Part shown: in pieces, positions 1-34,367 of the stretch | Numbering within the stretch: the stretch's first letter is position 1 | Layout: the number at the start of each line of letters is the position of its first letter | Source of the DNA: Cryptosporangium phraense | GTDB taxonomy: Bacteria > Actinomycetota > Actinomycetes > Mycobacteriales > Cryptosporangiaceae | Reading direction: 5' to 3' | Assembly (NCBI RefSeq): GCF_006912135.1 | Contig: NZ_VIRS01000036.1 | Location: 1 to 64,000 of the forward strand | DNA length: 64,000 nt | Notes under the pieces: generated by a model | Told to the model about the DNA's origin: nothing | The model's database searches: none | The model's input: only the letters and a program-made list of their open reading frames with translations | Translations under genes and position numbers: made by a program

Positions 1-319
1 GCGGCCCGGCGGCGGCCTCGATCGGGACAGTCCAGCGGTCGGGCCGGGCCGGGCCGCGGCGCCGGATCGGGAACATCGCGACGCGGTCGGCGGAGGCCGC
101 GGGGGTCCGGGGCGCCGGATCCGCGCTCGTGCTGCACGCGGCGAGCGGGCCCGGGGGTGCTGGTCGATGGGCGCGGGGTGGTGCGGAAGCGCGGGCCGGC
201 CGACGAGTGCGGCCACGTCCACTGGCGTGCAGGTTCCGCCGCCGCGTCCGATTCCACCGCAGCCGCGTCCTCGTCCGCATCGGCCGCACCCGCCATCACC
301 GCAGCCTCCGCCGCGCGGG

Positions 320-412
320 CGGCCTCCGCCTCAGGGCTGCCTCCGCCTCAGGGCTGCCTCCGCCTCGGGGCGGCCTTCGCCTCGGGGCGGCATCTGCCTC
401 GGAGGCGGCTCG
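320..412. repeat. 18-bp tandem repeat, about five degenerate copies
   Basis: A unit close to GGGCTGCCTCCGCCTCAG is repeated head to tail, first nearly perfectly and then with drift (CTCAG to CTCGG to CTTCGCCTC). The unit is a multiple of three and so keeps neighbouring frames open, but none of those frames looks coding. Confidence 0.6.
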
Positions 413-450
413 CCTCTCGAAGGTCTCAGCCGCCGTCGAGGGCACGGGGC

Positions 451-1359: not shown

Positions 1360-2613
1360 ATGAGGCCCGTTCTCCGCCGCCGGACCCTGGTCCTCCTCGT
1401 CGCCGCCGTGGTCGTCGTCCTGCTCGGGGCGGTCGCCGCGGTGGTCGCGCTGAACCGCTCCCCCGAGCTGGCGTTCCCGAGCGCGCCGGACCGGGCGGCG
1501 ACCGCGCACGCCGTGATCCGTCCGTCGGCGTCGCAGGACGATCTGGACGGCGCGCTCCTGGACTTCTACCGGTCCTGGAAGGACGAGTACGTCGTCGACG
1601 ACTGCGGCGACGGCACGCTGCAGGTCCACTCGCCCGACGCCAAGTACCCGTACGTCGCCGAGGCCCAGGGGTACGGCCTGGTCATCACCGCGATGATGTC
1701 CCCGGCCGACCTGGACGCCAAGGACACGTTCGACGGTCTGCTCGCCTACGTCCTCGCGCACCCGTCCACCCGGACGCCCGACCTGATGGCGGCCGAGCAG
1801 AACAAGGACTGCGAGGACCGCGCGGGCGGTGACTCGGCCACCGACGGCGACCTGGACATCGCCTACGGCCTGCTGCTGGCCGACAAGCTCTGGGGCAGCG
1901 ACGGCGACCAGGACTACCGCGGGCTGGCGCTGAAGCGGATCCGGGCGATCAAGAACAAGACCGTCAGTCCGGCGACCGACCTGATGCTGCTCGGCGACTG
2001 GAGCACCCCGGCGAATCCGACGCTCTACGCGACGACCCGGACGTCGGACTGGATGCCGTACTACTTCCGGGTCTTCGCCGAGGTCACCGGCGATCGGTCG
2101 TGGACGAGCATCCGCGAGGCCCACCAGCGCGCGGTCGCTGACCTGCAGGGCGATGATGACACCGGTCTGCTGCCCGACTTCGCCCACACCACCGGCGACG
2201 GGCTCGAGCCGGTCACCGGCAAGGTGCTGGAGACCGCCAACGACGGCGACTACTCGTTCAACGCCTGCCGCACGCCGTGGCGCCTCGGTACCGACGCGAT
2301 CCTCACCGGCGACGCCGGGTCGGTGGCCGCCGCGCGCACCGTGGACGCCTGGTTCCGGACGTCGACCGGCGGCGATCCGGGGAAGGTGGGGTCGGGTTAC
2401 CGGCTGGACGGCACCCGGGAGAACGCGGGCCCGGAGAACGCGTTCTGGGCCCCGCTGGCGGTGAGCGCGATGGCCGACCCGGGCGCGCAGCAGTGGCTCG
2501 ATCGGCTCTGGACGAAGCTCGCCGACAACGACGTCGAGAGCGGCAACTACTTCGGCGACACGATCCAGCTCCAGGTCATGACCCTGGTAGCCGGCCGCTA
2601 CCTCCCCCTCTGA
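1360..2613 (+). CDS. Membrane-anchored or secreted glycosyl hydrolase family 8 (cellulase/chitosanase type)
   Basis: The 417-residue product has an N-terminal signal or anchor (residues 8-31, after RRR) followed by a GH8 (alpha/alpha)6-barrel domain. The catalytic-acid motif is VAEAQGYG with Glu101, and the second catalytic carboxylate lies in SATDGDLDIAYG (Asp162). The C-terminal half keeps aromatic-rich barrel segments (DWMPYYFRVF, RTPWRLGTDA). GH8 enzymes cut beta-1,4 glucans, chitosan or xylan, and the substrate cannot be told from sequence. It acts outside the membrane. The ATG at 1360 has only a weak ribosome-binding site. It is convergent with the next operon, with two bases between the stops. 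Confidence 0.88.
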   Translation: MRPVLRRRTLVLLVAAVVVVLLGAVAAVVALNRSPELAFPSAPDRAATAHAVIRPSASQDDLDGALLDFYRSWKDEYVVDDCGDGTLQVHSPDAKYPYVAEAQGYGLVITAMMSPADLDAKDTFDGLLAYVLAHPSTRTPDLMAAEQNKDCEDRAGGDSATDGDLDIAYGLLLADKLWGSDGDQDYRGLALKRIRAIKNKTVSPATDLMLLGDWSTPANPTLYATTRTSDWMPYYFRVFAEVTGDRSWTSIREAHQRAVADLQGDDDTGLLPDFAHTTGDGLEPVTGKVLETANDGDYSFNACRTPWRLGTDAILTGDAGSVAAARTVDAWFRTSTGGDPGKVGSGYRLDGTRENAGPENAFWAPLAVSAMADPGAQQWLDRLWTKLADNDVESGNYFGDTIQLQVMTLVAGRYLPL

Positions 2614-2615
2614 CC

Positions 2616-3203
2616 TCACCGGGCCCAGGGGCTGACGGCCATGGTGCCGGTATTGCCCGGGTCGACGTGGAGGGTGAGGCGGTGGGCGGGCGCCCCGGGG
2701 GCCGGGGCCACCCGGAGGTACTCACCGACCACCACGGTCTCGGCGGCCGTCGTGAGGTTGCGCCAGATCAGGGCCGCTCGGGCGCGCTCGCCCGGGGCGA
2801 GCGTGACCCGCCTCGGCGGCGGGTCGGGGCGTCCCAGGGTGTAGACGTGCTGGGTACCGTGGAACGTGCGGACGTCCGTGGCGCGGCCGTCGGCGTCGAG
2901 GACCGTGACGACCGGGTAGCCCTGGACGGTGTACGGCCGGGTGCCGCAGTTGCGGAGCTGGAGCGTGACCAGACGCAGGCCGGCCGCGCCCTCGGTCTCG
3001 CCGACCGAGATCTCGACGCCCGGGTCGAGGCACCGGGGTCCGGAGCTCGGCGCCGGCACCGGCGTGGTGGCGACCGGCGCGGCCGGTGCCGGCCGCGCCG
3101 CCGGCCCCGCTTCCGGCCCCGCGGCCGGGCGGAGCGTGTCCGGCGTCTCCGTACAGCCCGCGAGCAGCAGCAACGCCGCGACGAGGACGAGACGAACCCT
3201 CAC
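2616..3203 (-). CDS. DUF4232-type lipoprotein
   Basis: Starting at a GTG that overlaps the FHA gene stop (GTGA), the 195-residue product begins with a clean lipoprotein signal ending in LLAGC, so Cys17 would be lipidated and the protein exported. A Pro/Ala-rich tether (residues 25-55) leads to a single beta-sandwich domain with the DUF4232 pattern: AAGLRLVTLQLRNCG, VQGYPVVTVLDADG, and a late WRN segment. An in-frame opening runs upstream into the FHA gene, but the GTG gives a perfect signal peptide and fits the operon. It is the last gene of the kinase/phosphatase/FHA operon. Its function is unknown; it may sense or scaffold at the outer membrane face. Confidence 0.8.
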   Translation of the reverse strand: MRVRLVLVAALLLLAGCTETPDTLRPAAGPEAGPAARPAPAAPVATTPVPAPSSGPRCLDPGVEISVGETEGAAGLRLVTLQLRNCGTRPYTVQGYPVVTVLDADGRATDVRTFHGTQHVYTLGRPDPPPRRVTLAPGERARAALIWRNLTTAAETVVVGEYLRVAPAPGAPAHRLTLHVDPGNTGTMAVSPWAR

Positions 3204-3949
3204 GGCTCCCCGAGGTGCAGCGTGAGGCGGGTCCAGGCGCCGACGTTCACATACGTGCCGTCGGCGAGCGGTACCGGCCGTTCGGCGTCGATCGGGTCGG
3301 GGCTGCCGTCGAGGTACGTGTGGTTGGTCGAGCGGAGGTCGATGACCGCCCAGCGGCCGTCGGGCTGAGGCACGAGCAGGGCGTGGGTGTGGGAGACCGC
3401 GGCGTCCTCCGGCGGGCCGATGAGGTCGATGTCCGGGTAGATGCCCCGGGCCCGGCTCCGGCGTCCGATGAGGAGCTGCCCGCCGGTGAGCGGGAAGCGC
3501 CGGTCCGGGCAGTAGACCGGGTAGTCGACCTCGCCCGCGTCCGGTCCGTCCAGCGCCCGCATCCGGTCGTAGAACCCCCGATCCGCGCTCACCACGATCC
3601 ACCACTCATCGTCAACCGCGACTGGCGCGGCCACCTCAGCCGATCCGCCCGGCCCAGCCGATCCGCCCGGCCCAGCCGATCCGCCCGGCCCAGCCGGCCC
3701 GCCCGGCCCAGCCGGCCCAGCCGGCCCAGCCGGCCCAGCCGGCCCAGCCGGCCCAGCCGGCCCAGCCGGCCGAGCCAGTAGATCGGCTCCGCACTCCTCG
3801 CAGAACCGCCCCCCGGCCTCGGCCCCGCACTCCCGGCAAACCGCCGCAGGAACGGCCGGCGGCACCGCCTCACCGATCCGGAGCCCGCACTCGTCGCAGT
3901 AGTCCTCGGCCTCCGACTCGTGCCCGTTCGGACAGACGACCCCGCTCAC
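3200..3949 (-). CDS. Double zinc-ribbon FHA-domain protein with collagen-like linker
   Basis: 249 residues in three parts. Two zinc ribbons (CPNG..YCDECG and CRECG..FCEECG) fill residues 1-58. A Pro-Ala-Gly / Pro-Gly-Gly-Ser triplet repeat spans about 60-105. A C-terminal FHA domain follows, with GGQLLIGRRSRARG, the SHTHA loop and DLRSTNHTYLDG (the Ser and Asn that grip phosphothreonine are present). FHA domains bind phosphothreonine, so this is the likely reader for the kinase encoded upstream. Unlike GarA/OdhI it lacks the N-terminal ETTS phospho-acceptor motif and is longer, so it should not be called GarA. GTG start overlapping the VWA stop. Confidence 0.87.
   Translation of the reverse strand: MSGVVCPNGHESEAEDYCDECGLRIGEAVPPAVPAAVCRECGAEAGGRFCEECGADLLARPAGPAGPAGPAGPAGPAGPAGPGGPAGPGGSAGPGGSAGPGGSAEVAAPVAVDDEWWIVVSADRGFYDRMRALDGPDAGEVDYPVYCPDRRFPLTGGQLLIGRRSRARGIYPDIDLIGPPEDAAVSHTHALLVPQPDGRWAVIDLRSTNHTYLDGSPDPIDAERPVPLADGTYVNVGAWTRLTLHLGEP
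3640..3780. repeat. 9-bp/15-bp tandem repeats encoding Gly-Pro-Ala triplets
   Basis: The unit CCGGCCCAG is repeated head to tail across about 3700-3775, and a longer unit with GATCCGCC recurs three times at about 3650-3695. Read in the FHA gene they encode collagen-like triplets. The perfect copies suggest that copy number can change by slippage without breaking the frame. Confidence 0.8.
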
Positions 3950-5232
3950 GGCCGCGCCGGACGAATCTGCTGCGTCTTCCGCGACGTCACCTCCAGCAAC
4001 TCCGACGCGCTGCTCGCCCCCCGCCGCCGCAACCGCACCGTCCCGGACGGCGCATCCACCACCTCGACGACCTCGGCCAGCATCTTCGCCGTCCCCTCCT
4101 GCCCGGACGCGGTCGCGAGCTGCACCGCCCGCCCGAGCTTGGCCGTGGCCCGCTCCAGGTCGCCGGCCTTCTGCGCCTCGGTGCCCTCCCGGATCGCGTC
4201 GGCCAGCTCGGTCGCGTCGGTGTAGTGCGCGACCCGCCCGTTGATCGTCGTCGTCGACGACAGGTCGTCGGTCCAGATCGCCCGCACCAGGCTCTGGCCG
4301 AGCACGTCGTCCCCGTGCACCACGCTGACCCGCGCCGCCAGGATCTCCTCGCCGAGCTCACCCGGCTCCACGTCGACCCGCAGGTGGTAGTCCCGGCTCT
4401 CCGCGCCCCACGACCCGATCGGGTACGCCCCGACCCGCTTCGTGAGGTCGGTCCGCCGCCCGGTCAGGTCGACGATCTCCGGGAACACCTGCTTGAGGAA
4501 CCGGACGCCCGCCCCGGCCGGCGTCCAGACCCGCAGGACGACGTCGGCCATCGTCTTGCCCATCGCCGCCTCGGTCATCGCCAGGAAGTCGGCGGTCAGC
4601 GCGTCCGGGTCGACGATCCCGGACGCGGTCCCGAGCAGCCTCTCGGCGACCTTGATCAGGTCACGCGCCACCCACCCGTCGCCGATCCCGCGGCTGTCGC
4701 AGACGAACAGGCCCTCGCACCGGTCGAGCGCCCGGTCGAACGTCGGGCCGTCCTCGCCGTTGGCCCCGTCGGTGAGCAGGATCGCGTGGTTGAGCGCGGC
4801 TCCGCGCTGGCCGAACATCTCGGCCGCGAGCGTGAGCCAGGCCCCGATCGCCGTCCCGCCCTTCGTCCGCAGGCGGGACACCGCGTCGCGGGCCTCGGCC
4901 CGGTTGGCCGCCGACGACGTCGCCAGCCGGTTCCGGCTCGGGTAGACCGGCCAGGCGCCGGTGTCCCCGGCGACGATCCCGAACGCGACCCCGTCGGGCA
5001 GCGTGTCGATCGCCGCCGCCGCGGCCTGCTTCGCGGCCTGCAGTTTCGCCCCGCTCATCGACGCGGACACGTCGATGAGGATCATCTCCGCGGTCGAACT
5101 CCGGGACACGGCCCGCGGCTGCGCCGCGCTCTCCGATCCGGTCACCGTCACCACCGCGTCGACGGTCCGCCCGCCGGCCGGGAGGTACTCGTTCTGGTGT
5201 GTCTCGATGCTGACCTGCGACGGGCTGGTCAT
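3946..5232 (-). CDS. von Willebrand factor A domain protein
   Basis: The chosen ATG at 5232 overlaps the phosphatase stop (ATGA) and gives 428 residues starting MTSPSQVSIE. A short beta-rich N-terminus is followed by a VWA domain whose metal-ion-dependent adhesion site DVSASMSG (DxSxS) lies near residue 55; later metal-site residues include TKGGTAIGAWL and LLTDGAN. The C-terminal ~180 residues form beta-rich and then helical segments (GDLERATAKLGRAVQLA) without recognised domains. No signal peptide, so cytoplasmic. VWA proteins next to PP2C, FHA and Ser/Thr kinases commonly act as phosphorylation-controlled scaffolds; that role here is inferred from context. Confidence 0.85.
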   Translation of the reverse strand: MTSPSQVSIETHQNEYLPAGGRTVDAVVTVTGSESAAQPRAVSRSSTAEMILIDVSASMSGAKLQAAKQAAAAAIDTLPDGVAFGIVAGDTGAWPVYPSRNRLATSSAANRAEARDAVSRLRTKGGTAIGAWLTLAAEMFGQRGAALNHAILLTDGANGEDGPTFDRALDRCEGLFVCDSRGIGDGWVARDLIKVAERLLGTASGIVDPDALTADFLAMTEAAMGKTMADVVLRVWTPAGAGVRFLKQVFPEIVDLTGRRTDLTKRVGAYPIGSWGAESRDYHLRVDVEPGELGEEILAARVSVVHGDDVLGQSLVRAIWTDDLSSTTTINGRVAHYTDATELADAIREGTEAQKAGDLERATAKLGRAVQLATASGQEGTAKMLAEVVEVVDAPSGTVRLRRRGASSASELLEVTSRKTQQIRPARP

Positions 5233-6170
5233 GCGGTCTCTCCCTCCGGTCGGGCGACGACGAGGACGGCGACCGCGACGTTGTCGGCCCCGCCCCTCTC
5301 CAGAGCAAGGTCGACGAGAAGCCGCGCGCCGTCCGCGGGCGGCCGCACGGCGATCGGCGCCAGATCCGACGGGCCGGCGAGGTAGCGCCACAGCCCGTCC
5401 GAGCACAGCACGACGACGCCAGGCCCGTCGGGCTGCTCGGTGACCACGTGGATCTCGTCGTCGGGGGCGTCGGCGCCGACCCAGTGCGTCAGCGCTCCCC
5501 CGTCGCTCTCCGGCAGCGCGTCGTCGACCGTCAGCAGGCGCGGGTCACCGTCGGCGGGCACCCAGTACGCCCGGCTGTCGCCGAGCCAGCCGACCGCGAA
5601 GCCGTCGGCGGTGACGATCGCGGTGACGTACGTGCAGCTCGGGATGCCGACCGGGGCCGGATCGGACGGAGACGGGTGGGTCAGCGCGTCGACGGCGGTG
5701 AACGCGCGGGCGAACCCGGCGCGCACCGCGCCGGCCGGCGGCATGCCACCGGTGACCGCCCGGAGCGCGGCCGGCAGCCCGGCCTCGACCGCGGCCACCG
5801 CGGCGACGTCGGCCCGCGGCGACGTCGAGATCCCGTCGCAGACGATCGCCGCCGCCACCCCGTCGTCGGCGCCGACCGCGATCGCGTCCTCGTTGGCGGA
5901 GCGCCGGTGGCCGCGGTCGGTCACCGCGCCGACGCCCGGCAGCGCGAGCTCGGACCGGTCCCGCCCGGCGCCCGTCCGGCGGCCGCACTCCGGGCAGAAC
6001 TCGCTCGCCGGCGCGGCTCCGCAGTGCCCGCACTCGCCGGCCGCGACCGCCGAGCTCGCCCACACCCGCGCCTCGGACCGCGGGGGCGGCGCCAGCTCGG
6101 TGCCGCAGGCCTCGCAGAAGACGTCGGCGTCGTCGGCGACGTGAGCGCACTCCGGGCAGGCAACGGTCAT
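5229..6170 (-). CDS. Zinc-ribbon PP2C-type Ser/Thr phosphatase
   Basis: 313 residues from ATG 6170. Two zinc ribbons (CPEC..FCEACG and CGHCG..FCPECG) occupy residues 1-75, then a complete PP2C core: TDRGHRRSANEDA, VCDGISTS (metal Asp-Gly), GWLGDSRAYWV, THWVG, VLCSDGLWRYL and GGADNVAVAVLV. PP2C enzymes remove phosphate from Ser/Thr with two Mn/Mg ions, so this is the natural antagonist of the PknG-type kinase whose gene ends two bases upstream. The zinc ribbons match those on the kinase and the FHA protein, suggesting a shared docking mode. Cytoplasmic. Confidence 0.92.
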   Translation of the reverse strand: MTVACPECAHVADDADVFCEACGTELAPPPRSEARVWASSAVAAGECGHCGAAPASEFCPECGRRTGAGRDRSELALPGVGAVTDRGHRRSANEDAIAVGADDGVAAAIVCDGISTSPRADVAAVAAVEAGLPAALRAVTGGMPPAGAVRAGFARAFTAVDALTHPSPSDPAPVGIPSCTYVTAIVTADGFAVGWLGDSRAYWVPADGDPRLLTVDDALPESDGGALTHWVGADAPDDEIHVVTEQPDGPGVVVLCSDGLWRYLAGPSDLAPIAVRPPADGARLLVDLALERGGADNVAVAVLVVARPEGETA

Positions 6171-6172
6171 CG

Positions 6173-8350
6173 CTACACCAGCGTCCTCGGGCGGACCGCG
6201 TTCGCGCGGTCGACCAGCGTGATCCGTTCGTCCACGGTCGGCGCGGCCTTGGCCAGCGCCCGGTAGACCTGCTCCAGCCCGAGGCGCAGCCCCCGCTCGG
6301 TCAGCGGGTGCCCGAGCACGTGCTCGGTCCCGTGGCCGGCGCCGTTGCCGCTCACCCAACCCAGCGCCGCGTCGAGGATCTCCACCGACAGCCGCGCCCG
6401 CGGCCCGTCGTCGAGCGGCAGGCCCTGCACACGGTCGGAGACATCCCGGAACATCTGCGCCGACCCCGGCCCGGCCAGCCGGGCCCGCAAGGCCGCGACC
6501 TGCGCGGCCGAGTGCTGCGCGGACGACGACGGCACCGACTCCAGCACCCCGATCGCGCCCCCGGGGTTCCGGCCGGCGAGCAGGAGCCGGGCCAGCCCGA
6601 ACGCCGCTCCGACGTAGGCGTGATCGCAATTCCACACCCGCTGGTACCGGCCGAGGGCGGCTTCGGTCTCCCCGGCCCACTCCGCCGCCACGGCCATCGC
6701 CAGCTGCGGCGCCAGCTCTCCCGGCAGGGCGCCGTAGACGTCGTCGAACGCGGCCAGGGCCTCGCCCGGCCGCTCGTCGATCAGCGCGGCCAGGCCCCGG
6801 TACCAGGGGATCCGCCAGTCCAGCGGGGCCACCGCGGCCAGCGCGTCCAGGACGGCGCGGGCCGCGGCCGGATCGCCCTCGCGCAGGTGGGCCCGGGCCA
6901 GCGCGATCGGCACCTCGACGCTGTCGGCCGGTGCGCTCCTCACCGCCTCGGTCAGCTCGGCCGCGCCGCGCTCACGCGTCGCGAGCAGGAACGTCGTGCC
7001 CGGGTCGGCCGGGTCGACCTGGGGCACCGGCAGCGCGGCCGCGATCGATGGTCCGTCGAGCACCCCCCGGCCGGTCGACGGTGCGAACGCCGCCCCCTCC
7101 CCGGCGAACCGGGTCGACGCGGCCGGCCGGGGCGTCCCGTCGGCCGCCGACAGCACCTGCCGGAGGACGCCGACGAGTTGGTCGGCCAGGTCCGCGGCCG
7201 ACTCGAACCGCCGGGCGACGTCGGTGTGGGTGGCCCGCAGCAGCAGCCGGTGGTACGACTCGTTGTCCGCCAGCACCGGGTGCTGGGCCGGGCTCGGCAG
7301 CCGGTAGCGGTACGTCGTGGAGAATTCGGCGAACTCGAGGCTGAGCACGGCCATCGTCCGGGCCACCGTGTACAGGTCGGACGTGACCGACGCCCCGGCG
7401 GTCCCCACCTCCGGCGCCGAGTAGCCGGGCGTTTCCCAACCGGCGCTGACGTGGTCGTCGATCCGGCGCACCGCGCCCAGGTCCACGATGGTGAGCCTGT
7501 CGTCGGTGTGGATGACGTTGTCCGGCTTGAAGTCGCAGTACAGCAGCCCGCGGTCGTGCAGGTAGCCGAACGCGGGCAGCACCGCCAGCCCGTACGCGAG
7601 CACCTGGGCCAGCGGCAGCGGCCGCGGAGGGTCGACCCGCAGGTCACGCAGCGACCGGCCGCCGACGTACTCCATCACGATGTACCCGACGTCGGCGCCG
7701 AGCTTCCGGTCCCGGCGCTTCGCGAAGTCGTGGATCTTCACGATCGACGGGTGGTCCACGGTCACCAGGTACCGGCGCTCGGACACCGCGGCCTCCATCG
7801 CGTCCGGGTCGCCGGAGTTGATCAGACCCTTGAGCACCACCCAGCGGTCGCTGACGTCGTCGCCCACGTTCTTGTCCCGGGCCAGGTAGATCCAGCCGAG
7901 TCCGCCGTAGGCCAGACACCCCAGCACCTCGTAGCGCCCACTGACCAGCGTTCCGGGGGTCAGCGAGGGCACGAACGAGAACGGCGTCCGGCACTTCGGA
8001 CAGAAACCCTCCACCCGGCCGGGCTTCCCGTTGCGGCTCCGGCCGACCTCCGCGCCGCACTTCCCGCAGTGCCGGCTGTTCTCCGGCACCTGCGGGTCCG
8101 CGAGCACGGCCCCGGCCGGGTCCGGCGGTGGGACCCGCGGGAGATCGACCATCCCGCCGCCGAGACGGCCGGGCCCGGTTCCCCGGGTCGACCGGTCCCC
8201 CGTTTCGATCGACGACGTACCGCTGGACGACGGTCCGTCGTCGTTCGTCGGGCTCGGCGGGCTGGCCGGGGCTTTGCGTCCGCAGTCGTCGCAGTAGCCG
8301 TCGGGGTCGTAGCTGCCGGTGCAGCCGGGCCGGATGCAGGAGCCGCTCAT
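6173..8350 (-). CDS. pknG: PknG-family serine/threonine protein kinase
   Basis: 725 residues from ATG 8350. An N-terminal zinc ribbon (Cys5, Cys10, Cys20, Cys23) and a Pro/Ser-rich linker are followed by the rubredoxin-like module typical of PknG (RHCGKCG..FCPKCRTPF, about 95-125). The kinase domain (about 138-380) has GCLAYGGLGWIYLA, the ATP lysine in VVLKGL, the catalytic loop YCDFKPDNVI and DLG in place of DFG. The C-terminal ~300 residues are TPR-like helices (LREGDPAAARAVLDALAAV). Mycobacterial and corynebacterial PknG phosphorylate the FHA protein GarA/OdhI and so control 2-oxoglutarate dehydrogenase in response to amino acids. Neighbouring GlnH and GlnX supply the same inputs here. Confidence 0.95.
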   Translation of the reverse strand: MSGSCIRPGCTGSYDPDGYCDDCGRKAPASPPSPTNDDGPSSSGTSSIETGDRSTRGTGPGRLGGGMVDLPRVPPPDPAGAVLADPQVPENSRHCGKCGAEVGRSRNGKPGRVEGFCPKCRTPFSFVPSLTPGTLVSGRYEVLGCLAYGGLGWIYLARDKNVGDDVSDRWVVLKGLINSGDPDAMEAAVSERRYLVTVDHPSIVKIHDFAKRRDRKLGADVGYIVMEYVGGRSLRDLRVDPPRPLPLAQVLAYGLAVLPAFGYLHDRGLLYCDFKPDNVIHTDDRLTIVDLGAVRRIDDHVSAGWETPGYSAPEVGTAGASVTSDLYTVARTMAVLSLEFAEFSTTYRYRLPSPAQHPVLADNESYHRLLLRATHTDVARRFESAADLADQLVGVLRQVLSAADGTPRPAASTRFAGEGAAFAPSTGRGVLDGPSIAAALPVPQVDPADPGTTFLLATRERGAAELTEAVRSAPADSVEVPIALARAHLREGDPAAARAVLDALAAVAPLDWRIPWYRGLAALIDERPGEALAAFDDVYGALPGELAPQLAMAVAAEWAGETEAALGRYQRVWNCDHAYVGAAFGLARLLLAGRNPGGAIGVLESVPSSSAQHSAAQVAALRARLAGPGSAQMFRDVSDRVQGLPLDDGPRARLSVEILDAALGWVSGNGAGHGTEHVLGHPLTERGLRLGLEQVYRALAKAAPTVDERITLVDRANAVRPRTLV

Positions 8351-9474
8351 GCCGTACCGCCTCCTGAGCTCGGTCGCAGGGACCGTTGGTAGGCCACCAC
8401 CGCCCGGGTCGCGGCGGCCAGGTCGCAGGGCGCGGTCCAGAGCAGGGCGTGGGCGTCGTCGTACGCGGAGAGCACGTCGGCGCGCTCGCCGAGCCCGGAC
8501 CGGACCGCCTTCATCCGGTAGGCCTCGAGCCGGCCCCGGAGTTCCTCGCGCCGCTCGATCAGCCCGTCGGCGAACGCGCGCCGGTCGCGGGCCGCGTCGT
8601 GGGCGGCGGCGACCGCCTGCTCCAGGTCCGGGAGCGCCTGGTCGAGCGCGGTGCCGCGAATCCGGTCGAGGGCTCCGAGCCGGGCGCTGAGCCGCCCGGT
8701 CAACGCGTCGCCGGCCGGCAGCCGGGGATCGCGGATCTTGGCCGTGGCCCGGGCGTTGGCCGCGGTCACCGCCTCCTCGGCCGCGGCCAGCCGCTCCAGC
8801 GCCTCGCCGAGCGCCGCGATGCGCCCGGGGTACCCGGCCCGGGCGGCGGCGAGCCGGGTCAGCTCGTCGAGCCGGTCGGTGGCGGCCGCGACGACGGCGG
8901 CCGCCCCGGGGTCCGTGAGATCGGTGCCGATCGGATCCGCCTCCGCCCGCCGGGCCAACCGGCGCAGCGCCGCCGTGCTGTCCCCGGCGCCGACGGCGCG
9001 CTGGGCGGCGTCCAGACGGGTCTGTAAGGACGTGAGGGCGGTGACCTCGGTCAGCCGGGTGGCGACCTCGGCCACGACGGCGGTGACCTGGCGGCACTCC
9101 TCGGTGAGCCAGGGGCCGACGTCGACCAGGTCGGTCGAGCGCAGGCCGGCCGGGACGTCCTCGTCGGCGATCGGGGCGAAGAGCAGCGCGGAGACCGCCG
9201 TGAGAGGGGACCGGCCCGGGCGGGCCGCGTCCGGCGGACCGGCCGCGTCGAGTGCACCGCAAAACGCGCGGAAGGCGCCCCAGAGCGCGTCGAGCCGCGG
9301 CGCGAGCCGCTCCCACAGCTCGCGGGTCGCCCCGGCGAGCTCGGCGGTCCGCAGGTAGGCCAGGCCGTTGTCGGCGGTGTCCAGCGCGAACAGCGCGTCC
9401 GCCACCCGGTGCCGGTCACCGGCCAGCTGGGTGAGCGTCCGGGCGATCCAGGCCCGGTCGACGATCGCCGGCAC
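8347..9474 (-). CDS. Helical protein of unknown function in the pknG operon
   Basis: 375 residues from a GTG five bases after the glnH stop; the stop overlaps the pknG start (ATGA), so the genes are translationally coupled. I recognise no family. The sequence is almost entirely amphipathic helix rich in Ala, Leu, Arg and Glu, with no signal peptide, membrane segment or cysteine pairs. Heptad-like runs occur near the middle and end (LDELTRLAAARAGY, IAALGEALERLAAAEEA, ADGLIERREELRGRLEAYR), ending in ADVLSAYDDAHALLW and a disordered tail SSGGGTA. Its place between sensor and kinase genes suggests a cytoplasmic coiled-coil adaptor linking GlnX to PknG. That is inference only. Confidence 0.8.
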   Translation of the reverse strand: MPAIVDRAWIARTLTQLAGDRHRVADALFALDTADNGLAYLRTAELAGATRELWERLAPRLDALWGAFRAFCGALDAAGPPDAARPGRSPLTAVSALLFAPIADEDVPAGLRSTDLVDVGPWLTEECRQVTAVVAEVATRLTEVTALTSLQTRLDAAQRAVGAGDSTAALRRLARRAEADPIGTDLTDPGAAAVVAAATDRLDELTRLAAARAGYPGRIAALGEALERLAAAEEAVTAANARATAKIRDPRLPAGDALTGRLSARLGALDRIRGTALDQALPDLEQAVAAAHDAARDRRAFADGLIERREELRGRLEAYRMKAVRSGLGERADVLSAYDDAHALLWTAPCDLAAATRAVVAYQRSLRPSSGGGTA

Positions 9475-9479
9475 GGCCG

Positions 9480-10475
9480 TCAGTCCCGGTACACGGCGAC
9501 GGGCGTCGGCGCGGGGCCGAGCCGGCCGAGCCAGCGGTCGTAGCTGCGGGCCAGCGCTCCGCTCGACCGCATCCGGGCGAGGACGCCGTTGACGAACCGG
9601 ACCAGGTCGCGGTCGTCCCGCGGGATCGCGACGCCGGACGGCTCGCTGCTCATCGGGGGCCCGACGAGCTCGGTGCCGGGATCCTGGGCCGCGATGCCGA
9701 GCAGGATCGTGTCGTTGGTGGACACCGCGTCGACCTGGCCCTGCTGGAGCAGCACCAGGCAGTCGAGCGTGATGTCGGTGGACACCGGCACGACGCCGGG
9801 GACCGCGGCGACCTTGGCGATGCTCGTGCTGCCCTTGGTCGCGCAGACCTTGCCGTGCCGGGCGGCGATGTCCTGGATGGACGTGATGCCGGAGCCCTTG
9901 TTCACGAGGATGCGCTGCCGGGCCCGCAGGTACTCGGTGGAGAAGTTGACCTGCTGCCAGCGCTCGCAGTTCATCGTCACGGTGCGGATCACCATGTCGA
10001 CCTCGCGGCGCTGGAGGACCGGAATGCGGTCGACGGTGGTGATGTGGCGGTACTGGACGCGGTCCGGGGTTCCGAACAGCGCGCGCGAGATCGCCTCGGC
10101 CAGGTCGATCTCGAAGCCGGCCAGGGCGCCGGTGGTGGGGTCGCGGTAGCTGAGCAGGTAGGCGTTCTGGTCGATGCCGACGATGACGCGGCCGCGGCGC
10201 ACGATCCGCGCCATCGTGCTGCCGGCGGGCATCCTGTTCGGGGCCGGGAGCGACGCCGGCGGCCGGAAGCTGGCGACCGGGTTGCACGTCGGCTGGGGCG
10301 ACGGGCTGGGGACGACGGCCGGGTCGGCGACGTTGAGCGGCTCCGGGACGACCGGGGCCGGGGCCGGCGTACCGGTCTCGCCGGGCGCGGCCCCGCAGGC
10401 GGCGAGCAGCGCGACGACGACCCCGGCGGCACCGAGCCGCACCGCCGCGCGGGAAAGCACGGCGGCCCGGGTCAT
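9480..10475 (-). CDS. glnH: GlnH-type amino-acid-binding lipoprotein
   Basis: 331 residues. The lipoprotein signal ends LLAAC (Cys27), followed by a Pro-rich tether and a family-3 solute-binding domain from about residue 85: GRVIVGIDQNAYLLSYRDPTTGALAGFEIDLAEAI, and TVTMNCERWQQVNFSTEYL. Close relatives bind glutamate, glutamine or aspartate. No ABC permease or ATPase is adjacent, whereas glnX overlaps upstream (ATGA) and pknG lies downstream. This matches the actinobacterial arrangement in which GlnH serves as a sensor for kinase control rather than as a transporter subunit. Confidence 0.92.
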   Translation of the reverse strand: MTRAAVLSRAAVRLGAAGVVVALLAACGAAPGETGTPAPAPVVPEPLNVADPAVVPSPSPQPTCNPVASFRPPASLPAPNRMPAGSTMARIVRRGRVIVGIDQNAYLLSYRDPTTGALAGFEIDLAEAISRALFGTPDRVQYRHITTVDRIPVLQRREVDMVIRTVTMNCERWQQVNFSTEYLRARQRILVNKGSGITSIQDIAARHGKVCATKGSTSIAKVAAVPGVVPVSTDITLDCLVLLQQGQVDAVSTNDTILLGIAAQDPGTELVGPPMSSEPSGVAIPRDDRDLVRFVNGVLARMRSSGALARSYDRWLGRLGPAPTPVAVYRD

Positions 10476-11824
10476 CGGTATTCTCCGATGCGCTTGCGGG
10501 TGCCGAGGACGACCGCGACGACGGCCAGCAGGCCGAGGGCGACGATCGCGACCCGGGCCGAGGCCAGGTCACCGGCCGCGCCGTCGGCGCGGTCGTCGAA
10601 GTAGTCACCGGTGAGCTCGACGTACTCGGCCAGCCGCTGGTCGAGCCGCTCGAACGCCACCGACGTGGTCTCCCCCGGGCCCGACACCAGCGCGACGGCG
10701 CCGCGATAGTCGCCGCGGTCGTCGAGGGCCCGGACCTTCTTGTGCAGCCCCCACCAGTACCGGGTCAGCCCGGCGACGCGGTCGAACAGGTCCCGGTCGG
10801 ACGAGGCCCGGTCGGCGGCGTCGCCCAGGAGTCCGGACCGGCCGTCGGCGCCGACCAGCCGGGTGAGCACCTGGACGTAGTGCCTCTCGTCGGCCGCGCC
10901 GTCACCCCGGGAGATCAGCGTCAGCGACTCGTCGGCCCGGGCCTGCAGGACGAGGACCCGCGCCTCGGCCAGCCGGATGAACTGCTCCGACCCGAGCTTC
11001 CGTCCGTCGTCGAGGTACCCGACCGCGGAGCCGATCGCGACCGTCGACCAGACCAGGCCGACGACCGTCACCGCGGTCGCGACCGCGAGACCGGGGTTGA
11101 GCACGCGGTTCGTCCGCCGGAGGAGGAAGACCTGGGCCGCGGCCAGCGCGCCGAGCAGGAGCAGCCCGAGGACCGGAACGCTCACCGGGAAGTCGGCGCC
11201 GGCCCGCTGGGAGGCGGCCAGGCGGTCGGTCTCCCGCGTGAACAGGTCCTGGGCGGCGGGCAGCAGCGTGCCGCGCATCAGCCCGGACGCCTCCCGCAGG
11301 TAGGCCGCGCCGAGCGGGAGCTGCTGACGGTCGTAGGACCGGGCGGTCTCGACGAGTCCGGTGTAGACCGGCAGGCCGATCGCGAGCGAGCGGAGCTTCT
11401 CCTCGCTGCGCCGGTCGGGCTCGTTCGTGGCCCGGAGCGCCTGGGCCAGGGCCGAGCCGGCCCGCGCGATGTCGTCCTGATAGCGCTGACGCAGGGCGGG
11501 CGTCCCGTCGCCGCCGGCCAGGAACGCGGTGGCGGCCGAGGCGTCGGCGTCGGAGAGCGAGCGGTAGATGTCGAGCGCGTGGACGCTGAGCGGGCCGCTG
11601 ACCGTCCGGACGTCCCGGACCTGGTCCTCGCGGGCACGGGTGCCGCTGTTGGCCATCGCCACCCAGAGCAGCCCGAGCACGACGAGCCCGGCGGTGACGG
11701 CGAGGAGCAGCCCGGGGGTGGTTCGGACCCGCCGGAGCGTGGGCGCGGTTCTCGTCCGGAGCGTGGGTGGGGCAGGAGGAGTTGTCGTCAGGACCACGGA
11801 CCGCCCCCGATCTTCCGACTGCAT
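10472..11824 (-). CDS. glnX: GlnX-type membrane sensor protein
   Basis: 450 residues with four predicted membrane helices: about 37-59, 212-233, 242-263 and 424-443. A long extracytoplasmic helical region separates the first two (about 60-210) and another separates the last two (about 264-423). Both ends lie on the same side and the tail after helix four is only RKRIGEYR. This is the topology of corynebacterial GlnX, which passes the GlnH ligand state to PknG. The long helical loops resemble chemoreceptor sensor bundles. First gene of the eight-gene operon. The ATG at 11824 has no good ribosome-binding site; a GTG 11 codons later, behind a G-rich stretch, is an alternative start. Confidence 0.88.
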   Translation of the reverse strand: MQSEDRGRSVVLTTTPPAPPTLRTRTAPTLRRVRTTPGLLLAVTAGLVVLGLLWVAMANSGTRAREDQVRDVRTVSGPLSVHALDIYRSLSDADASAATAFLAGGDGTPALRQRYQDDIARAGSALAQALRATNEPDRRSEEKLRSLAIGLPVYTGLVETARSYDRQQLPLGAAYLREASGLMRGTLLPAAQDLFTRETDRLAASQRAGADFPVSVPVLGLLLLGALAAAQVFLLRRTNRVLNPGLAVATAVTVVGLVWSTVAIGSAVGYLDDGRKLGSEQFIRLAEARVLVLQARADESLTLISRGDGAADERHYVQVLTRLVGADGRSGLLGDAADRASSDRDLFDRVAGLTRYWWGLHKKVRALDDRGDYRGAVALVSGPGETTSVAFERLDQRLAEYVELTGDYFDDRADGAAGDLASARVAIVALGLLAVVAVVLGTRKRIGEYR

Positions 11825-11873: not shown

Positions 11874-13067
11874 TCAGACCACGGTGAGGCGGACCGGGCC
11901 TCCGCGGGGGTCGGCGTGACGCAGGATCGAGTACGGGACCCGGAAGACGCGGCCCGGGGCCGCCGGCCACGGTGGACGGACGACGCCGATCGGCAGGCCG
12001 TCCTGGAGCGCGGTGACGACCGGGAACCGGTGGAAGACGTCGCACCGGAGCAGCAGGCGGCCGCGGGCGGGCGCGGCGCCCCCGGGCTCGAAGATCTGCG
12101 GGGCGATCCAGCGCAGCGGTGGGTCGACCGAGAGCCCGAGCCCAGCGGAGGGTTCCGTCCGACCGTCCAGATGGGCGCGTACCGCCCGAGCCACGTGCCG
12201 GCCGTCGAGCGCGGCCACGTCCGCGGTGTCGACCGGGTGGAGAAGGTTCCCGGCCGCGAAGACCCCCGGGGTGCTGGTGCGCAGCGCCGTGTCGACCCGC
12301 GGGCCGCGGGTGCCGCGGTCCATGTCCAGGCCTCCGGTGCGGGCCAGTTCGTGGTCGGGGATCCAGTCGCCGGTGGTGATCACCGTGTCGCAGGGCACCC
12401 TGCGGCGCTCCCCGGTGCGCCGGTCCTCGACGTCGACCGCGGTCACCCGGCGCTTGCCGTGGATCGCGACGACCCGGGAGGCCGGCCGCACCGGCACGCC
12501 GAACGTGACCGCCTTCTCGTGCTCGGTGGTCATCAGTACCGTCCGGCAGCCGGCCTCGCGCAGCGTCAGGACCGCGGACCAGCTGACCAGCTCGGCGCCG
12601 ATCACGACCGCCCTCGTGCCGACCTCCCGGTGGTGGAGATGGACGAGGTTCTGGAGCTGGCCGGTCGTGTAGACGCCGTCCGGGCGGTCGCCGGGGATCA
12701 GCCGGGCCGCCCTCGGGCGTTCGCGGGCTCCAGTGGCCAGCACGATCGCGTCCGCGGTCACGACCCGTCGGCCCCGGGGCGAGGTGACCTCGAGGGCCTG
12801 GGCCCCGGCCCAGCCGGTCACCATGGCCTCGGTCTCCAGCTCGGCGCCCGCGTCGCGGGCCGTCCGCGTCAGCCGGCGGGCGTACTCCGGTCCGGAGAGG
12901 AACCGGTGCAGGTCGCGCAGCCCGAATCCCGGGTGGTCGCTGTGCCGCGGGATCCCGCCGGTCTCGGCCTCCCGCTCGAGGACGAGCACCTCCGCCGACG
13001 ACGCCAGCGCGGCCGCCGCGGTCAGCCCGGCCGGCCCCCCGCCGACGATCACGACGCGCCCGCTCAT
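11874..13067 (-). CDS. FAD/NAD(P)-dependent oxidoreductase of the glycerol-3-phosphate operon
   Basis: 397 residues from the ATG at 13067, which overlaps the upstream gene stop (ATGA). Starts with a dinucleotide-binding fold (VVIVGGGPAGLTAAAALA), has the ATG motif of pyridine-nucleotide disulfide oxidoreductases (DAIVLATGARERPR) and a second, degenerate nucleotide site (AVVIGAELVSWSA). A late VFAAGNLLHPVDTADVAALDG segment matches the second FAD contact. It probably passes electrons from the partner dehydrogenase to NAD or another acceptor, as in bacterial operons pairing a BFD-domain glycerol-3-phosphate dehydrogenase with such a flavoprotein. Last gene of the operon. Confidence 0.82.
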   Translation of the reverse strand: MSGRVVIVGGGPAGLTAAAALASSAEVLVLEREAETGGIPRHSDHPGFGLRDLHRFLSGPEYARRLTRTARDAGAELETEAMVTGWAGAQALEVTSPRGRRVVTADAIVLATGARERPRAARLIPGDRPDGVYTTGQLQNLVHLHHREVGTRAVVIGAELVSWSAVLTLREAGCRTVLMTTEHEKAVTFGVPVRPASRVVAIHGKRRVTAVDVEDRRTGERRRVPCDTVITTGDWIPDHELARTGGLDMDRGTRGPRVDTALRTSTPGVFAAGNLLHPVDTADVAALDGRHVARAVRAHLDGRTEPSAGLGLSVDPPLRWIAPQIFEPGGAAPARGRLLLRCDVFHRFPVVTALQDGLPIGVVRPPWPAAPGRVFRVPYSILRHADPRGGPVRLTVV

Positions 13068-14437
13068 CGGGCGGCGCCCTGGGCCTCGACCAGTTCGGCG
13101 ACGTGCGCGCCGCAGTAGAAACCCTGGCAGCGGCCGTTCATCACCCGAGTCCGGCGGCGCAGGCCGTCCAGATCCGACGGCGGAATCACCGACGCGTACG
13201 CGTCCCGGATCTCCCCGCTGGTCACCCGCTCGCAGAAACACACGATCCGCCCGTACTCCGGGTCGGCCTCGATCGCGGCCGCGTCCTGGTACGGACGCAT
13301 GCCGGCCTCGCCGAGGTTCGGCATCCGCGGCGGCGCCGGCAGGTTCTCCCGCGGGGCCAGGTCGAGAAACCCGCTCAGCAACCCGGACACGTGCTCGGCG
13401 ATCGCCATCCCGGCCGTCAGCCCGGTCGACCGGATCCCGCCGACCAGCACGTACCGCTGGTCGGCGTCCACGTCGATCAGGTAGTCACCGCGGTCGATCG
13501 CGGCCCGCAGGCCCGCGTACGTCGCGGTCACCTCCTCCTCGAGCAGCCGCGGCATCAGCTCCGCGCCCTTCTCCCGCAGGAACGCGAACCCGTCCGCCGA
13601 CGTCCCGGTCGCGGTCCGGTCGGACAGGTCCTCGGCCGTCGGGCCGAGCATCACGTTGCCGTAGATCGTCGGCGAGACCAGCACGCCCTTGCCGACCTTC
13701 GACGGCACCGGCAGCACGATCACCGGCACCAGCGGCCGGGCCAGCTTGTCGAACACCAGCAGCTCGCCGCGCCGGGGCGTCACCGTGAACCGGTCGTACC
13801 CGAACAGCCGGTCGAGCACGTCCGCGCCGAGCCCGGCCGCGTTGATCACCCACCGGGCCGAGACGCGGCCCGCCGTCGTCGAGATCCCGGTCGTCGACGG
13901 CCCGACCGCCACCGACGTGACCCGGTGCCCGCGCAGCAACGTCACCCCGCGGTTCACCGCGTCCGTCGCCAGCGCCAGGTTCGTCGTCCAGGTGCAGATG
14001 ATCGACTCCCCCGGCACGCTCAGCCCGCCGAGCGCGCCCGGCCCGAGGTCCGGCACCTGCCGGTACACCTCGTCCGCGGACACGATCCCGCACGCGGTGT
14101 ACCCGTTCTGCTCGGCCTTCCGACGCAGGCCCGGCAGCGCGTCCCGTTGCTCGGACGTCCAGGCGACGAGCAGCGCACCGGTCCGTTCCACGGGGACGCC
14201 GGTCTCCGCCGCGTACGCTCCGAGCAGCGCGTATCCCCGGGCGACCAGCCTCGACTCGAGGGTGCCGGGGGTCGCGTCGAACCCGGTGTGCAGAATCGCG
14301 GTGTTGGCCTTGCTGGTGCCGTCGCCGACGTCGTCGCGTGCCTCGAGCAGCGCCACCGAGCGGGACGTGCCGCCCAGCGTCCGGGCGAGCGCGGCCCCGA
14401 CGAGTCCGCCGCCGATCACCGCGATGTCGAACGTCAC
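13064..14437 (-). CDS. FAD-dependent glycerol-3-phosphate dehydrogenase with C-terminal BFD [2Fe-2S] domain
   Basis: 457 residues from GTG 14437, overlapping the kinase stop (GTGA). An N-terminal DAO-type flavin fold (IAVIGGGLVGAALARTLGG) is followed by a substrate domain (NTAILHTGFDATPGTLESRLV, NAAGLGADVLDRL, GVLVSPTIYGNVMLGPTAED) and the signature VGGIRSTGLTAGMAIAEHV. Cysteines 400, 402, 437 and 442 (CFC..GRCQGFYC) fit a bacterioferritin-associated-ferredoxin-like Fe-S domain. This architecture converts glycerol-3-phosphate to dihydroxyacetone phosphate and passes electrons to a partner flavoprotein, here encoded next. A related 2-hydroxyacid or other polyol phosphate substrate is possible. 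Confidence 0.85.
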   Translation of the reverse strand: MTFDIAVIGGGLVGAALARTLGGTSRSVALLEARDDVGDGTSKANTAILHTGFDATPGTLESRLVARGYALLGAYAAETGVPVERTGALLVAWTSEQRDALPGLRRKAEQNGYTACGIVSADEVYRQVPDLGPGALGGLSVPGESIICTWTTNLALATDAVNRGVTLLRGHRVTSVAVGPSTTGISTTAGRVSARWVINAAGLGADVLDRLFGYDRFTVTPRRGELLVFDKLARPLVPVIVLPVPSKVGKGVLVSPTIYGNVMLGPTAEDLSDRTATGTSADGFAFLREKGAELMPRLLEEEVTATYAGLRAAIDRGDYLIDVDADQRYVLVGGIRSTGLTAGMAIAEHVSGLLSGFLDLAPRENLPAPPRMPNLGEAGMRPYQDAAAIEADPEYGRIVCFCERVTSGEIRDAYASVIPPSDLDGLRRRTRVMNGRCQGFYCGAHVAELVEAQGAAR

Positions 14438-15858: not shown

Positions 15859-15864
15859 GGCTTT

Positions 15865-15878
15865 ACTGTATAGACCAT
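15865..15878. promoter_or_regulatory. Probable GntR (HutC-type) operator upstream of the kinase operon
   Basis: Read on the minus strand the sequence is ATGGTCTATACAGT, an imperfect palindrome around GTCTATAC. It resembles the TGGTCTAGACCA-type sites bound by HutC/DasR-family regulators. It lies 7 bp upstream of the kinase start and 30 bp before the divergent GntR gene, so bound regulator could control both. Confidence 0.6.
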
Positions 15879-15907
15879 GCGGTGTGGACCGGAAGGTACC
15901 GTCGGTC

Positions 15908-16663
15908 ATGGTTAGGCTGTCGGGCGTGGCGGCGAAGAATACCAAGGGTGCGTCCGCGCCTCGTTATCTCACGATCGCCGGCGAACTGCGCGACCGGATC
16001 ACCACCGAGAAGCTCGCGCCGCACACGCTGATCCCGTCCGAGCGAGAGCTCTCCGACCAGTACGGGGTCAGCCGGATGACCGCGCGCCATGCGCTGTCGC
16101 TGCTGGAGAACGAGGGCTACGTCTACCGGCGCCCGCCGCGGGGCACGTTCGTGGCCGAGCCGCGCGTCCGGTTCCACATCGGAAGCTTCTCCGACGAGAT
16201 CACCCGGGTCGGGCGACGGCCGTCCGCGCAGGTCGTGTGGGCCGAGGAGCGGGAGCCGAGCCCGTCGGCCCGCGAGGCGCTCGACCTCGCGCCCGGCGTC
16301 ACCGTGCACGCGCTGCACCGTCTGCGTTTCGCCGACGACGAGCCGATCGCGCTGGAGACGACGTATTTTCCGAGCGGGTTGACGCCGGGTCTGCTGGAGC
16401 AGGGGTTGACCGGGTCGCTGTGGGAAGTGCTGCGTCGGCAGTACGGGATCGTCCCGACGCACGCCCGGGCGACGATCCAGTCGATCGTCATCGACGACGC
16501 GTCGTGTGCGAGGTTGAAGGTGCGGAGCGCGTCGCCCGGGGTGCTGTTGACGCGGTGGACGTATGACGGGGGCGGGCGGTGTATCGAGTTCGCGCGGGAC
16601 GTGTACCGGGCGGACAGGGCGTCGTTCGAGGTGGAGGCGACGATTCCGGTGCCGGTGGAGTGA
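15908..16663 (+). CDS. GntR-family regulator, HutC/UTRA type
   Basis: 251 residues from the ATG at 15908, which follows a GGAAGG element by 11 bases; a GTG six codons later is an alternative. The winged-helix domain contains LTIAGELRDRI, IPSERELSDQYGVSRMTARHALSLLENEGYVYRRPPRGTFV. The UTRA ligand-binding domain (about 95-245) includes HALHRLRFADDEPIALETTYFP and ends CIEFARDVYRADRASFEVE. It is divergent from the glycerol kinase operon with a matching operator between them, so it most likely represses that operon and is relieved by a phosphorylated sugar or polyol. Confidence 0.9.
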   Translation: MVRLSGVAAKNTKGASAPRYLTIAGELRDRITTEKLAPHTLIPSERELSDQYGVSRMTARHALSLLENEGYVYRRPPRGTFVAEPRVRFHIGSFSDEITRVGRRPSAQVVWAEEREPSPSAREALDLAPGVTVHALHRLRFADDEPIALETTYFPSGLTPGLLEQGLTGSLWEVLRRQYGIVPTHARATIQSIVIDDASCARLKVRSASPGVLLTRWTYDGGGRCIEFARDVYRADRASFEVEATIPVPVE

Positions 16664-34331: not shown

Positions 34332-34367
34332 GCGCACTAGCCTATCCAGGCCCCACCGGCCCCGTGC

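Follow-up and report, generated by a model that had tools for sequence, protein, structure and literature searches.

The window analysed here is a stretch of 64,000 nucleotides from Cryptosporangium phraense (positions 1 to 64,000, forward strand, of contig NZ_VIRS01000036.1, RefSeq assembly GCF_006912135.1). It has a G+C content of 73.6% and is part of an 8.46-Mb genome in 87 contigs. Between positions 2616 and 11824 lie eight minus-strand genes, with G+C at third codon positions of the coding type, around the protein kinase PknG and its sensor proteins GlnX and GlnH. In the order of transcription they encode GlnX, GlnH, a helical protein designated ADP, PknG, a PP2C phosphatase, a protein with a von Willebrand factor type A (VWA) domain, an FHA protein and a DUF4232 lipoprotein. 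Consecutive genes overlap by 4 nt at five of the seven junctions (GlnX/GlnH, ADP/PknG, PP2C/VWA, VWA/FHA and FHA/lipoprotein); the remaining two are gaps of 5 nt (GlnH/ADP) and 2 nt (PknG/PP2C). An earlier note, made from the sequence alone, had described eight same-strand genes with mostly 4-nt overlaps, and both the junctions and the domain matches agree with it. Below we refer to the ADP, PP2C, VWA and FHA genes as the extra genes, because the GlnH-GlnX-PknG operon of Mycobacterium and Corynebacterium (PMC6069109, PMC9769921, PMC8546545) is described with three genes. The two operons are alike in protein families, gene order, the rubredoxin-kinase-TPR core of PknG and the tail of GlnX. The window locus goes beyond the three-gene operon by its four extra genes and by a zinc ribbon at the N terminus of PknG, and differs from it in having an FHA protein of its own besides GarA and a different side-chain pocket in GlnH.

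PknG (725 residues; 6173..8350, minus strand, as for all features of the cluster) consists of a zinc ribbon, a Ser/Thr-rich segment and rubredoxin, kinase and TPR domains, the last three all above their cut-offs (PF16919, 88.2 bits; PF00069, 73.9 bits; PF16918, PknG_TPR, 274.1 bits). The solved PknG structure 2pzi matched residues 61-723 with 502 bits, that is, over 660 residues comprising kinase, rubredoxin and TPR, and the gene is linked to glnX and glnH. Its nearest PknG relatives are those of Dactylosporangium and Phytohabitans (Micromonosporaceae). The N-terminal zinc ribbon (C5, C10, C20 and C23; 8279..8338) goes with the extra genes: its pattern was found in 109 of 129 PknG proteins from loci with at least one extra gene versus 3 of 28 from loci without any, after 21 of 178 loci that lacked the parsing pattern had been dropped. 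The PP2C enzyme (313 residues; 5229..6170; PP2C_2, 47.7 bits) carries an N-terminal double zinc ribbon (DZR, 33.1 bits). Catalytic and metal-binding motifs are present in the kinase, in PP2C and in the metal-ion-dependent adhesion site of the VWA protein. ADP (375 residues, GTG start; 8347..9474) had no Pfam match up to E 1 and no NCBIfam match up to E 0.01. Its AlphaFold2 model is a confident all-helical rod with a mean predicted local distance difference test score (pLDDT) of 93.3, and a fold search against the Protein Data Bank (PDB) gave a best E of 1.8, which does not show a new fold. The C-terminal part of ADP is conserved (R-x-E-L-R-G-R and P-C-D-L). Our guess is that ADP serves as an assembly scaffold.

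The membrane relay GlnX (450 residues; 10472..11824) passed the cut-off of subfamily NF058618 (396.7 versus 250 bits), scored 184 bits with the equivalog for protein kinase G-activating GlnX (NF041460), under the curated cut-off of 780, and had a best PDB match of only E 0.57. The last membrane helix of GlnX proteins is directly followed by a terminal G-x-x-x-R-[LI]-x-[ED]-[YF]-[RL] (n = 159). The arginine at position -6, the acidic residue at -3 and the aromatic residue at -2 were each found in 157 of the 159, and 151 fitted the strict end pattern R[LIVA]x[EDQ][YF][RLKS]. When 5139 stop-to-stop open reading frames of at least 300 codons from the same loci were screened for this pattern, only one besides GlnX had it. 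The motif was also present at 26 of 27 loci without extra genes. In C. glutamicum, the C-terminal end of GlnX, about eight residues, is cytoplasmic, and the mode of the GlnX-PknG interaction has been called elusive (PMC9769921). As early as 2018, the TPR domain of PknG was proposed to bind the termini of GlnX, in a text whose available parts name no motif (PMC6069109). We regard the C-terminal hexapeptide, R-I-G-E-Y-R in the window (10475..10492), as a candidate docking peptide for this domain.

Where one genome has two GlnX systems, the last residues often differ (L128, L129, L130, L131, L133, L045 and L080). Two genomes (G595 and G669) that carry both a full cluster and short operons have E-F-L in the former and E-Y-R or E-Y-H in the latter; the two extended loci of Nocardia niigatensis end in E-F-L and E-Y-R, and those of Actinomadura barringtoniae in E-Y-R and E-F-R. 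Such differences could help to keep two pathways apart, to which Kibdelosporangium aridum (L052 and L079), with E-Y-R at both, is a counter-example.

GlnH (331 residues; 9480..10475; SBP_bac_3, 94.4 bits) is an amino-acid-binding lipoprotein with a lipobox recognised by eye; its best PDB matches are the GlnH structures 6h2t and 6h1u (237 bits). The side chains that hold the ligand, Asp, in the solved GlnH are R147, T162, S164, R169, W232 and D250 (PMC6069109). Across the family (n = 146), R147 was invariant (146/146), R169 was kept in 141 and D250 in 137, and position 232 was Trp, Tyr, Gln or another residue, depending on family. The window protein keeps R147, T162 and R169 and has Thr for S164, Thr for W232 and Asn for D250; it therefore departs from the list of residues specific for Asp/Glu. 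From these residues, an amino-acid ligand is likely, and specificity for Asp/Glu is not assured.

Next, we examined how far the genes stay together. The block recurs in a named set of 80 neighbourhoods, from Micromonosporaceae, Glycomycetaceae, Pseudonocardiaceae, Streptomycetaceae, Thermomonosporaceae, Nocardiopsidaceae, some Nocardia and one Mycobacterium. Among these, the best 80 of at least 579 relatives, 52 had all four extra genes, 6 had three, 4 had two, 15 had one and 3 had none; the set is biased to the window type and was thus not used for frequencies. There are two gene orders, GlnX-GlnH-ADP-PknG-PP2C-VWA-FHA and ADP-PknG-PP2C-VWA-FHA-GlnX-GlnH, the second with a 4-nt FHA/GlnX overlap in many cases.

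A less biased sample consisted of 393 genomes drawn evenly from the class. Its families bear codes (f2, f4, f6, f9, f94 and f95); judging by the named loci next to them in the PknG tree (for f2, Nocardia and Mycobacterium), we take f2 to be Mycobacteriaceae and f6 to be Streptomyces. PknG_TPR matched in 151 of the 393 genomes. The VWA family (E up to 1e-40) was found in 100, all of them among those 151, and its share of the PknG_TPR genomes was 98/113 outside f2 and 2/38 inside f2. ADP matches of at least 100 bits numbered 84, and 78 of these directly preceded pknG on its own strand. As to the other six, three had pknG on another contig, two were in genomes without a PknG_TPR match, and the PknG_TPR match of the last fell outside the matches listed.

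PknG loci were also tallied one by one, in stretches picked by hand from the places of matches and hence not random. Of the 97 loci counted, 84 were kept after removal of 9 that were truncated at contig ends (one of them L128, a full cluster of f2) and of 4 that scored below 600 bits; L122, from another class, and L183, with PknG under 200 bits and the rest of the cluster present, were kept out of the tally. Outside f2, 53 of 62 usable loci had at least three extra genes and 43 had all four; in f6 it was all four at 19/19. The 22 usable f2 loci comprised 1 with at least three extra genes, 16 with the trio only and 5 with pknG without both sensor genes. Trio-only status holds within the fetched flanks, and the genome of L176 has a VWA match just outside its stretch. 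Lentzea, Umezawaea and one Saccharothrix had, within the flanks, GlnX-GlnH-PknG-PP2C only, a possible intermediate form.

The DUF4232 lipoprotein (195 residues; 2616..3203; PF14016, 87.2 bits; 4-nt overlap with FHA) behaved differently from the other seven. A phmmer search (E up to 1e-3) of the 80 named neighbourhoods gave no match to it, and a rough look for a lipobox in the next gene after FHA in relatives revealed no equivalent; we therefore rejected it as a member of the conserved cluster. The seven other genes are a conserved cluster, beyond chance, and the full cluster is the common form among the sampled PknG loci outside Mycobacteriaceae. The earlier note had proposed that a whole circuit on GlnX-GlnH forms one operon and had suggested looking for co-occurrence of its eight genes in actinobacteria. 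Kinase, PP2C, VWA and FHA are indeed conserved as a unit and seven genes recur together, and only the lipoprotein falls away. Relatives with the trio alone, which the note had named as evidence to the contrary, account for 16 of the 22 usable loci in f2, and elsewhere 53 of 62 loci retain at least three extra genes.

Three side observations concern these gene families. Genomes of f95 contain further ADP and VWA pairs away from the PknG_TPR matches listed (G551:C1:6015756, G445:C119:22909 and G489:C239:21883), and a PknG-type kinase may yet be present there. Second, divergent PknG-like genes occur in f6, f94 and f4 genomes (L124, L125, L126, L127, L169 and L187), at three of these places (L127, L169 and L187) with a VWA gene and a GlnX-like gene nearby. 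At L183 (G295:C25), the pknG, VWA, GlnH and GlnX frames are low-scoring or in pieces and ADP, PP2C and FHA are whole; this is either a decayed cluster or a poor assembly.

The nature of the VWA protein (428 residues; 3946..5232; VWA_3, 53.0 bits; VWA_3_C, 48.9 bits) was indicated by structure comparison. A member of its family has been solved, 4FX5 from Catenulispora, which scored 609 bits with the family profile and 357.7 bits with the window protein, to which it is 46% identical (TM score 0.90). The AlphaFold2 model of the window protein (pLDDT 90.0) matched 4fx5 with a Z-score of 51.0. Its next match was Sulfolobus ArnB (8s05_A), over all three domains (Z 31.6, root-mean-square deviation 3.4, 363 residues, 17% identity, alignment spanning 6..421 of the model), and the ArnB paralogue vWA2 (5a8j) followed at Z 26.2. 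The three parts of an ArnB-like protein, a vWA domain, an inserted beta-sandwich and a C-terminal helical bundle, are all seen in the predicted model, and 4FX5 has the same three-domain build as vWA2 (Hoffmann et al. 2019, PMC6509490). As judged from this model, the VWA protein is structurally related to archaeal ArnB over its whole length. It has no close paralogue in the window genome (623.7 versus 27.7 bits).

The tail of the VWA protein carries a motif, S417-x-x-T420-x-x-I423 (3964..3984), that stands out in an alignment of 115 proteins, two of which are gapped at the tail. In the remaining 113, Thr was found at position 420 in 112 and Ser at 417 in 111, and many linker positions vary. The residue at +3 was V in 63, T in 26, I in 7 and A in 7; V, T or I together account for 96. 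On the simplest account, T420 is a candidate phospho-acceptor that the FHA protein would read. The latter (249 residues; 3200..3949; FHA, 40.1 bits) has a double zinc ribbon, a Gly/Pro-rich linker and an FHA domain, in which the phosphothreonine (pThr)-pocket residues S186, H189 and N209 are invariant and R163 is nearly so (21 sequences).

This pair resembles the archaeal ArnA-ArnB switch (PMC6509490, PMC12852372, PMC7472852), in which a zinc-ribbon and FHA protein is likewise paired with a three-domain vWA protein and which further comprises a Ser/Thr kinase with a TPR-like part (ArnC), a phosphatase and a nutrient input. For unphosphorylated ArnB, ArnA uses its zinc finger, and for ArnB phosphorylated by ArnC it uses its FHA domain, in a nutrient-dependent manner (PMC12852372); the phosphatase of the archaeal pair is PP2A. 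By its domains, the cluster FHA protein shares the ArnA outline of zinc ribbon and FHA. The window system differs in having the bacterial PknG, a phosphatase of the PP2C type and membrane sensor genes in the operon, and its VWA protein differs from ArnB in a candidate acceptor Thr at the extreme tail and in sequence (the identity given above). By analogy of architecture, FHA-VWA binding may depend on phosphorylation as in ArnA-ArnB. The earlier note had cast the VWA protein as a scaffold; its place in the unit stands, and its role is here recast as that of an ArnB-like protein and probable substrate.

Which form of the operon is older was addressed with a PknG tree (109 rows, thinned by hand; quick search, no bootstrap). 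PknG of the short operons of f2 formed one clade (16 rows, SH-aLRT 100), whose sister group (6 rows, SH-aLRT 100) holds PknG from full clusters of Nocardia and Mycobacterium, and the two together were nested among full-cluster lineages. Because of this nesting, the three-gene operon looks reduced. G595 and G669, the two f2 genomes with both forms, suggest a plain reading in which duplication followed by reduction gave the three-gene operon. The earlier note had described the operon as an extended one. It is not an extension peculiar to the window genome, given how common the full form is outside Mycobacteriaceae; the outline of the note was right, and it is probably the three-gene operon, not the full cluster, that departs from the rule.

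Taken together, we propose that the locus represents the PknG amino-acid-sensing system in its full form and works through a VWA/FHA switch, a reading to which we give a probability of about one half. An extracellular amino acid would be bound by the lipoprotein GlnH, which would then change GlnX. The cytoplasmic C-terminal peptide of GlnX (R-L/I-x-E-Y-R) would engage the TPR domain of PknG and release the kinase, and PknG would phosphorylate itself and, in the tail of the VWA protein, the near-invariant Thr. The FHA protein, which its zinc ribbons would already keep loosely in place, would capture phosphorylated VWA by its FHA domain in the manner of ArnA and ArnB. PP2C would reset the phosphorylation of VWA, and ADP would act as the scaffold of the assembly. 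What the sequences, models and tree show is the gene content, the conservation of the unit, the catalytic, metal and pThr-pocket motifs, the predicted ArnB-like fold, the two near-invariant motifs and the nesting of the three-gene operon; we infer every phosphotransfer and binding step, the role of ADP and the VWA/FHA pair as main output. A further proposal is more tentative, and we would put it at somewhat worse than even: that the original job of PknG was a bacterial ArnA-ArnB-like switch and not GarA, and that the mycobacterial and corynebacterial operon is a stripped descendant that lost the VWA/FHA output and kept GarA.

Several points weigh against these proposals. The tree has weak deep forks and a short-operon pair (f4) close to its base; the term "reduced" therefore rests on parsimony. 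The tail Thr of VWA sits where the ordered part of the model gives out (mean pLDDT 89 over residues 411-420, then 61) and may instead be structural, and the known pThr sites of ArnB lie in its helical bundle, not exactly at the place of the tail Thr. When the PDB was ranked with the FHA protein, a plant protein (1uht, 1.9e-11) came before ArnA (8s05_C, 1e-8; 5a8i, 1.8e-8) and ArnA before GarA (3.6e-8); sequence alone does not single out ArnA, nor can the pThr specificity of the protein be read from it. The strict GlnX end pattern is missed by 8 of the 159 proteins, two of them through extra residues. With Asn in place of the amine-holding aspartate and Thr in place of Trp, even the ligand of window GlnH is uncertain. 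Finally, a garA gene is present in the same genome, and GarA may be the true target.

This last point is the basis of the strongest rival, the classical amino-acid/GarA pathway, in which PknG acts mainly on GarA (OdhI) and thereby controls 2-oxoglutarate dehydrogenase, and PP2C, VWA, FHA and ADP only tune or place the kinase. As the earlier note had held, the FHA protein of the operon is not GarA: it scored 22.3 bits with the GarA model NF041660 (cut-off 200). It is like GarA/OdhI a small FHA protein tied to PknG signalling; unlike them, it has no T-T-S acceptor motif. Its N terminus is a zinc ribbon, a feature also seen in the GarA proteins read outside the order of the window. The separate garA that the note had advised looking for is on another contig (G000:C68; 205.1 bits, 204.9 in a second search), where it precedes a gene of the MerR type (family assigned by eye). 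Its product has an acceptor-like motif, T-S-T-M, at the N terminus, with Val at the first Thr of E-T-T-S (by eye). In the class draw, GarA-type matches (E up to 1e-20) were present in 388 of the 393 genomes, 48 of them over the curated cut-off. Compared with the 151 genomes with PknG_TPR, this means that GarA does not depend on or track PknG. We read the acceptor region by eye, leaving 9 of 71 GarA stretches without a pattern match unread. Within f2, E-T-T-S-V-F was found in 30/30; outside f2, T-S-T was kept in 28 of the 32 read and the first Thr of T-T-S in 14. Streptomyces-type GarA (f6) had E-T-T-S-T-I in 7/7.

The kept T-S-T, the f6 motif and a kinase that is PknG-like through its rubredoxin, kinase and TPR parts favour the classical pathway. 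The abundance of GarA without PknG, the location of garA, the loss of the first Thr in many genomes, the window included, and a dedicated phosphatase and FHA reader, which would be superfluous, speak against it. We consider it possible as the main course, at clearly lower odds than the VWA/FHA switch. GarA could also be a second target of PknG, and the system may control 2-oxoglutarate dehydrogenase. A link between the type of PknG and the acceptor Thr of GarA was tried and given up, as there was no clean correlation: the first Thr is kept in the seven f6 genomes read, which have full clusters or the ADP gene, and in G454 and G500 (f94), which have no PknG match, and it is missing from G375 and G676, both of them short-operon genomes of f4. 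As a side observation, GarA outside the order of the window usually has T-S-T in place of T-T-S-V, unlike the GarA proteins studied. There, an N-terminal zinc ribbon was present in 29/29 read (among L218-L256); window GarA has none.

TerY-P triads are sets of adjacent vWA, kinase and PP2C genes. The window locus has this adjacency, which does not show common descent, and also shares zinc ribbons with such triads. In actinobacterial conflict neighbourhoods, too, genes for a kinase (often with a zinc ribbon), PP2C and a stand-alone vWA protein are adjacent (PMC7159879). The cluster might accordingly be a stress or conflict module with a borrowed GlnX-GlnH sensor. We think this unlikely. Here, the kinase is a PknG with rubredoxin and TPR, the vWA protein is ArnB-like over its whole length, and a solute-binding sensor, an FHA reader and a helical protein are added; the seven-gene unit contains no GTPase or Ter protein, and its constancy at the usable f6 loci is unlike a patchy conflict system. 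That co-location reflects co-expression only, with the extra genes acting outside the PknG circuit, is highly improbable in view of the overlapping junctions, the close linkage of ADP and pknG, the co-occurrence of VWA with PknG and a block that is intact whether the sensor genes come before or after it.

The kind of system described here is known; for the variant, the ArnA/ArnB-like pair and the two motifs, no connection with PknG was found in the literature searched. In the parts of the papers at hand, the extra genes are not linked to PknG, and a STRING picture (Figure 2B, PMC6069109) may already show some of them. The same papers approach PknG signalling via the three-gene mycobacterial and corynebacterial operon, which suggests that an output via VWA/FHA has so far gone unstudied. 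If the three-gene operon is indeed reduced, most sampled PknG lineages outside Mycobacteriaceae, including the Streptomyces type, would use an output beyond those studies. The GlnX tail motif would narrow the elusive contact with PknG (PMC9769921) to six residues. An ArnB-like VWA protein with a zinc-ribbon FHA partner would connect a nutrient pathway of bacteria with one of archaea, and the cluster would give a context to structure 4FX5, which is titled only "von Willebrand factor type A".

On its downstream side, the cluster faces a GH8 endoglucanase gene (1360-2613, plus strand). Two terminator-like sites were detected between 1.0 and 2.0 kb, and a promoter scan of the locus returned none. 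Upstream, at a distance of 49 nt and on the same strand, is a gene for an FAD oxidoreductase; none of the 80 named loci gave a match to it, and the idea of a conserved upstream neighbour was dropped. It belongs to a group just upstream of glnX (11874-15945, minus strand) that encodes an FGGY kinase, an FAD oxidoreductase with a BFD domain and a second FAD oxidoreductase, beside a GntR regulator (15842-16663, plus strand). Elsewhere in the window, a minus-strand gene (31674-34337) encodes an 887-residue protein in which an Hsp70 domain precedes a Peripla_BP_6 domain of the extracellular type; to find a chaperone fold fused to a ligand-binding fold is odd. The gene lies next to a Ser/Thr kinase gene (29666-31639, minus strand).

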